Positions 29,895 to 33,270 of a DNA stretch of 64,000 nucleotides are shown piece by piece (positions within the stretch are counted from its first letter, which is position 1; every line of letters begins with the position of its first letter). A program made the translations under genes and the position numbers. The notes under the pieces are model-generated. The model searched no databases, had not been told where the DNA came from, and was given only the letters and a program-made list of their open reading frames with translations. The stretch comes from Acidobacteriota bacterium (GTDB lineage Bacteria > Acidobacteriota > Terriglobia > Acidiferrales > UBA7541), in assembly GCA_003223215.1 (NCBI GenBank), contig QHYH01000087.1:62001-126000 (forward strand), read 5' to 3'.

Positions 29895-30791
29895 ATGAAG
29901 CGGGAATCAATCTTCAGTTCGCCCGCTCGCTTTGCCGCACTTGCAATCGTATTTTTCGCTGGCTCTGCTCAGGCAAGCGCGCAAGAAACGGCTCCTCCTC
30001 GTCCCGAGGCGCAAATCCAAGAAGTTGCGAGTCGAATCCTCCAAGAAGCGGAGAAGGCAAATTGTAAGTCGCGGGGCTGCAGAATTCTTGTCACCGACTT
30101 TGTTGTTCCCTCTGGCTTAACGTCTCAATTTGGTTTGCAGCTCGCCGACCAGTTCTCAAATGAGCTTGCATCTCAGCAGCGTGGCATCCAGATCATCGAC
30201 CGCTCGAATCTTAGAGAATATCTTGAGAAAGAACGCATTTCGTCGGATCTCGTGAGTAACGATAGTGCAATCCGTTGGCTGGGTAAGGCGCTAAATGCCA
30301 CCACAGTCCTAACGGGCGTCACCAAGCATCTAGGATCGTTCGTGCACGTTCAGTTGAAATTGCTCTCTTGCGACAAGGAAAAGACTGCAGCAATTGAGGA
30401 ATTCACTCTGCCACGACCAGACTCAACGAACACCCTCAGCGGGTTCGATCCAATCGCACAGGCCGCTTCCAAAGATAGATGGGCTTCAGCTCCTGCGGCG
30501 TATGGGGCCGGTCCTGGTGAAGCCACGTTTCCTGTCTGTCTGTACTGTCCGCCGCCCCCGTACTCGGATGCTGCCCGCGCCGCGAAATTCGAAGGACAAG
30601 TCGTTTTAGACGCAGTGGTTTCCGAGGATGGCAGGGTGAAGTGGACAAGAATAGTCCGGGGCGCGCCCTTCGGCTTGAACCAAGAAGCTTTGAACACTGT
30701 CCGACAGTGGAAGTTTAAGCCGGGTGTCCACGACGGAAAACCGGTGTCAGTACTTCTTCCATTAGACCTTGGATTTCGGCTTGTTGATTAA
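29895..30791 (+). CDS. TonB C-terminal domain protein with FlgO/CsgG-like N-terminal region
   Basis: TonB_C-type end PPPPYSDAARAAKFEGQVVLDAVVSEDGRVKWTRIVRGAPFGLNQEALNTVRQWKFKPG; N-terminal FSNELASQQRGIQIIDRSNLREYLEKE. Confidence 0.8.
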   Translation: MKRESIFSSPARFAALAIVFFAGSAQASAQETAPPRPEAQIQEVASRILQEAEKANCKSRGCRILVTDFVVPSGLTSQFGLQLADQFSNELASQQRGIQIIDRSNLREYLEKERISSDLVSNDSAIRWLGKALNATTVLTGVTKHLGSFVHVQLKLLSCDKEKTAAIEEFTLPRPDSTNTLSGFDPIAQAASKDRWASAPAAYGAGPGEATFPVCLYCPPPPYSDAARAAKFEGQVVLDAVVSEDGRVKWTRIVRGAPFGLNQEALNTVRQWKFKPGVHDGKPVSVLLPLDLGFRLVD

Positions 30792-30819
30792 GAGCGGCTG
30801 TTGGCGTTGGGATAGAACG

Positions 30820-31760
30820 CAGGCGCTGTATCGGTGGGCAGCGGGGAGTTGCCGTTACCGGCTCCTCATCGGAACATGCCGGTGCCTCGTTCCGCGCCTC
30901 GATCAGTTTCCTACGTCCCCCCGTTTCATCCCGGACGGCGGGATTGCCCCGGTCCGGTTGGGGACAGCAGCTTTCCCCTTGGAGCCTTCCCACGATGACT
31001 AGCCACGTTAAGCGATGGCCCGCATCCTTTGGCTACCACCAGGTTTGCTCCAACGCTCGACGCGCTCGTTTACACCGACATGCGCCGGCCACAGTGTGCC
31101 GACTGGTGTGCGTTGCACGCCCGCCACTACCCAGGGCCCCTTTGCTCCGGAGGCGTTACCCTCCATCCTCGCTACTACGAGCCCATGCGCGTGTCCTGTG
31201 GCCTCCATGCCCCTTCGACCTTGGTCTCGTAGGCACTGGTCTTCGCCGCTTAAGCCATCCACGGCTGGTCCACCGGACCGTCCTAGCTTTGACTGTGTGG
31301 CTTCTTCCGAGAGTGTCGTGCCCCGTGCGCCGGGTGCTCACTTGGTGCGTATGGTCGGTTTCGTCCCAAGTGACAACGGCCTTCACCACCGACGGATGGT
31401 TCGGCGCGCTCCCAGGTCTCCCGCAAGCGACTTCACGCGGACGCCTACTTTCGACGCTGCAGGCATTCTCTTCGATTACAACCCTCCCGTTCACTTGCCC
31501 TCCTGGTCGCTCCCACGCAGTGATGCGTGACGAGGGCTTTGTCGCTCGAGCTTGCTTGGGATTCGTTTCCTCGTCCCAAGTCGAGCCAGTTACCCGGTTG
31601 AATCGACCAATTTCCGGGGCAGGATTCGCACCTGCTAGTCCCACAGTTTTGCTAGCTGCACCCATCGGATTAGAGAATGACCGGCGCGCTGATCCACTAC
31701 TCCCGCAAAGGGTCCGCAGCACGTGCGGCTACGTTCAAACAAGCTTCGCGGAGAAGTAGA
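30820..31760 (-). ncRNA. Structured-looking noncoding block, possibly a group II intron-like remnant
   Basis: About 0.94 kb with overlapping ORFs on both strands but no recognisable protein; minus strand contains GGGACTAGCAGGTGCGAATCCTGCCCC and many short G-rich complementary segments; no RT ORF. Confidence 0.25.
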
Positions 31761-31789: not shown

Positions 31790-33025
31790 CTACCAATTTG
31801 TAATAGAGCCATCTGGCCGGAAGTACGTCTGCGCGCGATTCGTATCGTATTTCGTTACTTCCAGAATCGGAGTCAGCTTGCTCATATCCAGCTCGACGCC
31901 GAGTCCCGGTCTGTCGTTGGGATAGAGCTTTCCGCTCTTGAAATCCAGGCTGACGGGCACATGCGAAAGCTCCTTTCCTTCAAACCCATATTCCATCAGC
32001 AGCGGACCCGAGAATGTGCCCAGCGAATTCACCAGCGCTGCCGTGGCGATCGGTCCGGTGAAATGAGGCACGATGCCCACGAAATGCGTCTCGCAGATCG
32101 CCGCGATCTTCATCATCTCCGTAATGCCACCCACGTTCGGTAGGGTAGCGCGGACGTAGTCGATATCGTGGTTCTCCACGAGAGGATTGAAATCCCAGCG
32201 ATTCCCCCATTCCTCGCCCGCCGCAATCGGAACCTTGACTAACTTTCGGAGGCGCGGAAGGTCTTCGCCAAATGCCTCCGCGCGCACGGGATCCTCGACA
32301 AACAAAGGCGCAAGGCTTTCGATCAGATCGCATCCGCGAATCGCGTCAGAAAGATCGAATCGCTGATGAAAATCGATGCAGAAATCCCCGTCCTTCCCTA
32401 CGCCTTCGCGCGCCTGCACGCATTCCTCGTAAAGCTGATTCACCTTTTGGTGCGTATTGAAGGTGGTATTCGCGGGCGTGTCGGCCGCGCCCATGCGGAA
32501 GGCACGATAGCCGGCAGCAATGGTCGCCGCCGCGCGATCCTTCACGCTCGTGCCTGGCTTGATCCCTGGTATGATGCCGCCTGTGTTGTAGCACTCGCAG
32601 TAATTCCGCGCCATGCCACCCAGGATTTCGTGAACCGGCAGTTTCAGCACCTTGCCTTTGATGTCCCACAGCGCAAGATCGAGCGCGCCGAGCGCATGTT
32701 CTCTTTCGCGCCCAGGAGGATAAAAGAACGACCGCGACATGTCCTGCCACAGCCGTTCGATATGCTGCGGGTCCTGCCCGATCAGCCGCCCGGCACACTG
32801 TTTCAGTGCATCGGGAAAACCGCCTTCGCCAATACCGGTGATTCCCGCGTCGGTCTCGATGGTCACCACCGTATCGGCCTGATTGAACAGTGGGTTCGGG
32901 TTGGTGGGCGCATAAGCCCGTACGCGCGTGATCTTCATCTTCGGCAATGCCGCTTCGAGCAGCGAAAGATGCGTGAACGCGTACACTCCTGCCGCTATCG
33001 ATTTCAGAAAGAATCGCCTTTTCAT
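31790..33025 (-). CDS. Mandelate racemase/muconate lactonizing enzyme family protein (enolase superfamily), exported
   Basis: KITRVRAYAPTNPNPLFNQADTVVTIETDAGITGIGEGG; LDLALWDIKGK; metal-ligand regions DFHQRF, FVEDPV, AGEEWGNRW; N-terminus MKRRFFLKSIAAG. Confidence 0.9.
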   Translation of the reverse strand: MKRRFFLKSIAAGVYAFTHLSLLEAALPKMKITRVRAYAPTNPNPLFNQADTVVTIETDAGITGIGEGGFPDALKQCAGRLIGQDPQHIERLWQDMSRSFFYPPGREREHALGALDLALWDIKGKVLKLPVHEILGGMARNYCECYNTGGIIPGIKPGTSVKDRAAATIAAGYRAFRMGAADTPANTTFNTHQKVNQLYEECVQAREGVGKDGDFCIDFHQRFDLSDAIRGCDLIESLAPLFVEDPVRAEAFGEDLPRLRKLVKVPIAAGEEWGNRWDFNPLVENHDIDYVRATLPNVGGITEMMKIAAICETHFVGIVPHFTGPIATAALVNSLGTFSGPLLMEYGFEGKELSHVPVSLDFKSGKLYPNDRPGLGVELDMSKLTPILEVTKYDTNRAQTYFRPDGSITNW

Positions 33026-33270
33026 AAGCCTCCTTCCTTGGGCGGTCGAGAGCGCCCCGTCGCAGCCCCTGAAGCGCCCCGAGAACACTGTTTCCGCACG
33101 CCGCTAGGTCATTGGCGCACCTACGGTCGACTCCAGGCTTCTAACACGAGCGAAGCGGATTCACAACGAAAGACATGTGAATTATGGGAATAATGGGAAT
33201 TGTAGAAAAGAAGCTCTTCGGGACGCGGTTGTTCGCGTTCTGGTAGAATCGCCCAGCAGAGAAGGTCACC

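Follow-up and report, generated by a model that had tools for sequence, protein, structure and literature searches.

A group II intron without an intron-encoded protein in an acidobacterial genome and its relatives with an atypical domain V

The minus strand of the 64,000-nucleotide stretch of Acidobacteriota DNA analyzed here (the window) contains an 857-nt group II intron, 31662..30806, which carries no intron-encoded protein (IEP). It lies between an enolase-superfamily gene (31790-33088, minus), which shares its strand and lies upstream, and a TonB-C gene on the other flank (29895-30791, plus; TonB_C and FlgO domains). We assign a probability of about 0.9 to the reading in which the block is a group II intron that has no ORF, contains all six domains in their canonical order and entered its site by reverse splicing with the help of an IEP supplied in trans. 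Domain order, domain I, domain VI (DVI) and exon pairing are those of a group II intron whereas the triad and bulge of domain V (DV) are non-canonical, and therefore the element is classified as a variant. The original prediction, a structured noncoding block of ~ 0.94 kb without a credible gene, is borne out, as five ORFs tested have no match in Pfam or NCBIfam and a group II intron occupies the place. The element is real, but the limits proposed for it, 30820-31760, need adjustment, the true extent being slightly smaller. The odd, overlapping reading frames on which a structured or mobile RNA had been postulated are a weak argument in themselves, although the conclusion holds. DV and DVI, the splice-site pairing and an entire family of relatives go beyond that prediction.

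Extent and parts of the intron

The intron is complete, with ends GGUGCAGC...CUAUCCCAAC. Its 5' end was set by the alignment of shared ends together with the pairing between exon and intron (EBS1-IBS1), and its 3' end by a covariance model of DV and DVI, termed R1, which was built from five related copies of the family designated group A and excluded the window copy. The group A alignment terminates at the same CUAUCCCAAC. Compared with the terminal sequences GUGYG...AY, the 3' AC agrees; at the 5' end the alignment gives GGUGCAG, which a shift of one nucleotide would turn into GUGCAG. In Bradyrhizobium erythrophlei the boundaries are defined by two copies (L175 and L185), both inserted into other group II introns. 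Their joined flanks reproduce the uninterrupted outer introns except for one T, which fixes the B. erythrophlei intron as UGAGCAG...CCCAGU; the window 5' end at 31662 follows from the same alignment as the UGAGCAG boundary. A corresponding empty site of the window copy was not found in congeners, where only the enolase side matches and the neighborhood is not conserved.

Rfam model RF02003 matches part of domain I at 31637..31471 (E 6.5e-14), its 65.8 bits exceeding the gathering score of 49. The suspected likeness to group II intron domain I, for which an Rfam search had been proposed, is thereby substantiated. The hairpin AGCAGG-UGCGAAU-CCUGCC, previously recognized in the sequence, maps to 31636..31618 of the minus strand; in the domain I consensus derived from 13 relatives it forms a paired element. 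Further downstream, a domain I loop at the structural position of EBS1 in the other copies contains CGUCGG (31394..31389), which forms 6/6 pairs with IBS1 CCGAUG (31668..31663), the final six nucleotides of the 5' exon. The pairing extends to 7/7 with the first intron base, and this 7-mer is found only once in the intron. Across the family, with EBS1 taken as six bases of the fixed loop in the best six-base register and permuted sets treated likewise, 64 of 66 base pairs form over 11 distinct loops, compared with a permutation mean of 48.5 and none as high in 20,000 permutations.

The segment 31185..31143 (GUAGUAGCGAGG...GCAAAGGGGCCC) is assigned to domain III by analogy, using a 59-nt similarity to the IEP-bearing intron on contig C10 of the same genome and the family alignment; it is shorter than in the relatives and lacks their apical extension. 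The domain IV region follows at 31142..30962. Pfam and NCBIfam recognize in it neither an encoded IEP nor a reading-frame remnant of the kind kept in Thermosynechococcus elongatus introns, and they identify no reverse transcriptase (RT) or other protein family in any frame tested, in line with the predicted absence of an RT from the block. DV (30961..30928) and an extended DVI (30927..30806) were located by R1, which matches 30961..30806 with 62.4 bits (E 4.7e-13), against 7.5 bits for the runner-up in the 64-kb window; both helices covary in the family. DV and DVI thus stand at the 3' end, downstream of domain I, in the canonical order. The DV triad is AAC (30959-30957), followed by an upper helix with a GCAAU loop and a 2-nt CC bulge (30938-30937). 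DVI, with the stem GGGGGGACGUAGG / CCUGCGUUCUAUCCC, has as its branch point a bulged A at 30813; the distance to the 3' end, 8 nt, falls within the expected 7–8 nt.

These features suggest how the element would behave. Base pairing of EBS1 with IBS1 would have directed its reverse splicing into the intergenic site, where an IEP acting in trans would then have reverse transcribed it, and, if transcribed from the upstream enolase-superfamily gene, it would be spliced as a lariat out of the 3' untranslated region through the bulged A of DVI. Cellular splicing, catalysis, mobility in trans and present activity of the window copy are predicted from sequence.

The 5' exon region (window ~ 31700-31760) shares a 57-nt stretch, at 78% similarity, with congener DNA directly upstream of an integrase-like ORF (L018 1501-1557), and may be a remnant of another mobile element. 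A 172-nt congener fragment (L046 3065-3235) is 89% identical to window 31142-30971 in the domain IV region and stands without the remainder of the intron. A second domain I of the same Rfam class is located ~ 0.6 kb left of the window start (G000:C259:61238-61376, minus; also L039 5239-5377).

Domain V and covariation

The AAC triad, CC bulge and five-base loop of DV are shared by the window and nearly all group A copies, although the frequency of AAC is biased upward because the scan that collected many of them required a middle A and R1 was trained on AAC copies. Two plasmid matches obtained by BLAST, from Mycobacterium riyadhense and Cupriavidus, likewise have AAC. Opposite the triad, group A has G and A in place of U and U. 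Group II introns have AGC or CGC triads (PMC4424553); the window copy possesses neither these nor an AY bulge, yet it keeps the five pairs between triad and bulge. Applied to the letter, this DV feature would leave the element outside the group II introns. Most group A copies also have an unusual 5' end, UGAGC or GGAGC. Inspection of J2/3 by eye revealed no consistent change that would compensate for the AAC triad.

Up to E 10, the Rfam DV model RF00029 reports nothing in the window; up to E 1, it finds the DV of the outer introns but reports none for other group A copies. Standard RNA models therefore only half recognize the family: domain I is detected, DV is not. It has been argued that ORF-less bacterial introns could have escaped notice only by having a DV that departs from those already known (PMC4424553), and group A is that exception, a family of ORF-less introns with atypical DV. 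A 2022 survey required a match to the Rfam domain V model at a 24-bit threshold (PMC8919778); that model, applied here with an E-value limit of 1 instead, is silent on group A. If the AAC triad is catalytic, the family would provide a natural test of tolerance in the active site held in common with the spliceosome.

The structure-based reading had been staked on covariation among homologues, which is present. In two sets of group A matches, DV and DVI contain 14 and 18 pairs changed on both sides, with 96.1% and 96.9% of the cells paired and 0/500 shuffles as high, and pairing falls sharply when the structure is slid by one column. In the second family of the genome, group B, the DVI stem contains six both-side-changed pairs in six sequences, and 97.8% of the DV-DVI cells are paired (0/500 shuffles). 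These DV/DVI alignments were fitted to the model and are biased towards it. A consensus structure for the whole element was derived from 13 full-length relatives, with the window left out, and projected through a sequence alignment that included the window. The window copy forms standard pairs at 164/208 positions (78.8%), compared with 30–52% when slid by up to 4 columns. In fifty of its pairs neither base is that of the majority pair and pairing is nonetheless kept, at 51–57% identity to the relatives.

The alternative that deserves most weight is that the window copy is only the relic of a group II intron, dead and unable to splice or move any more, and we consider this to have a sizeable minority chance. 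It is a single divergent copy, at the stated distance from all 13 relatives, its domain III lacks their apical extension, and it keeps 79% of the consensus pairs, compared with 86–98% for the relatives in leave-one-out fits; the copy is possibly somewhat more worn (mild decay) or less well aligned. However, drift free of selection should have broken the pairing, DV/DVI and EBS1-IBS1, while the 50 both-side changes preserve pairing, DV, DVI, the bulged A and the 3' end are intact and EBS1-IBS1 is still perfect, all of which argues against a relic.

Relatives, mobility and spread

The genome contains 15 matches to the RF02003 domain I model. An all-against-all comparison yielded two RT-less sets with common ends: group A (the window copy and those on C183, C192b, C108 and C47) and group B (C159, C192a, C197, C72 and C80). 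C192b, of group A, is inserted in DVI of C192a, of group B. The proposed check for repeats with sharp boundaries thus gave a positive answer, with copies in the same genome and elsewhere. The D1-only Rfam match had suggested a 5' fragment of an IEP intron, which the common 3' ends and DV/DVI eliminate. Full-length RTs are encoded elsewhere in the genome, outside the block: contig C147 combines a domain I of a different class with a full-length RT, and contig C10 combines domain I with a 442-aa RT/maturase and a canonical DV (AGC triad, AC bulge). The C10 intron, of the RF02003 (group-II-D1D4-4) type, resembles group A in its domain I fold and in the 59-nt stretch at the domain III position but differs in its encoded protein and its DV.

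Group B is a second ORF-less intron family, GUGCAGCGAUGC...CUACCCGAC, with an AGC triad in most copies. It occurs in arrays, both tandem and nested (L033 17496-18394; L034, whole contig; L074-L081), with DVI covarying strongly, and has matches in 44/399 genomes of the class. The group A copy on contig C108 (L045 6186-6334) has a domain V without the upper helix and is probably dead.

The relatives behave like mobile elements, as in B. erythrophlei GAS478, which contains ten strong group A copies. The nine measured at full length are 97.5–100% identical, 916–918 nt long and ORF-less, with differing flanks. At least four copies (L175, L181, L186 and L211) lie within the domain III-like segment GUAGUA..GUGGAG..AAG of other group II introns, L185 is elsewhere inside a group II intron, and one more copy is directly behind another group A copy. 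With ten near-identical copies in a named strain, splicing and mobility are directly testable there. Several group A copies retain the 3' end and are missing variable 5' parts (elements of 122–663 nt), which is what incomplete reverse transcription would be expected to leave, but other rearrangements or contig ends could account for some of them.

None of the group A copies examined encodes an IEP, and the intact ones contain no RT, their lengths of 742–918 nt leaving no room for one; mobility is therefore probably in trans. Among congeneric genomes, all ten with an R1 match also match the group II RT/maturase model, compared with 11/26 of the others (Fisher P 0.002). Genome size and an overall abundance of introns confound this association, and one of the positive genomes (G029) has RT fragments only. 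The co-occurrence is compatible with a protein supplied in trans, but would also be seen in genomes that are simply rich in introns. Most likely, group A is a group II intron that moves without a protein of its own, relying on the proteins of other introns and often inserting into these introns.

R1 matches 36/399 genomes of the class; several of the congeners are soil metagenome-assembled genomes of group 2 Acidobacteria, which points to a similar origin of the window. When one genome per species was scanned with a pattern that required A at the middle triad position, 51 stretches were returned, of which 40 matches pass R1; the hosts include Acidobacteria of groups 1–3, Bradyrhizobium, Methylomicrobium and Candidatus Thiosymbion. 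A plasmid search with the window DNA gave no match, and one with a Bradyrhizobium copy gave partial matches in M. riyadhense, Cupriavidus and Niallia, with group A DV/DVI confirmed by R1 on the first two. The family is thus present in at least three phyla: Acidobacteriota, Pseudomonadota and Actinomycetota. That it constitutes an overlooked RNA-only lineage with a working AAC core, a parasite of group II introns that borrows their RTs and enters their ribozyme domains, is proposed tentatively, at a little short of even odds and against a literature on ORF-less introns that was covered in part.

This behavior also bears on the idea of a cellular structured or regulatory RNA with a borrowed domain I fold. 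The intergenic position, the conserved structure and the lack of a protein would suit such an RNA, but the family has copies at many unrelated sites of one genome, inserts into other introns, includes copies that lack 5' parts and matches its sites specifically through EBS1-IBS1, which makes the idea very improbable.

Comparison with known systems

The closest known systems include other ORF-less introns. Those of T. elongatus (Mohr et al. 2010, PMC2882425) likewise have no IEP, pair well through EBS/IBS at their insertion sites and form nested twintrons with IEPs acting in trans, as inferred for group A. However, they go back to a single deletion of the ORF from a resident IEP intron, and parts of that ORF survive in them, whereas no such remnant is recognized in the window and the group A lineage spans several phyla. 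C.te.I1 of Clostridium tetani (Zimmerly and Semper 2015, PMC4424553) is also a bacterial ORF-less intron with no close IEP intron at hand. It was described as the single known case, in a genome without an IEP-related gene, in contrast to the group A genomes examined, where group II RTs are present. The nested ORF-less introns of Methanosarcina acetivorans (PMC4424553) share the repeated insertion into other group II introns; group A differs in being bacterial and in placing its inner introns in the outer domain III or domain VI.

The circularly permuted (CP) group II ribozymes (Roth et al. 2021, PMC8637638) are ORF-less, ~ 900 nt long and known from several phyla, and the odd environment of the DV triad is a further point of likeness. 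Their order is D5-D6-D1-D4, whereas that of the window is canonical. A CP RNA is scarcely credible here, as DV and DVI are 3' of domain I in the window and its relatives, and the matched empty sites in Bradyrhizobium place the splice sites at the outer ends. A protein gene in one of the overlapping frames is the least probable explanation of all: open frames reach 271 aa, but the five tested have no Pfam or NCBIfam match that would reveal a conserved protein family, and the conservation is explained by base-pair covariation.

Two neighborhoods of other group A copies contain additional features. An Acido-Lenti-1 RNA (RF01687; 49.4 bits, L083 482-527) shares its contig with a group A intron. 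On the M. riyadhense plasmid (L261 1501-2148), the group A DV/DVI, where no feature is annotated, follows an annotated group II maturase-domain fragment and is possibly another nested insertion.
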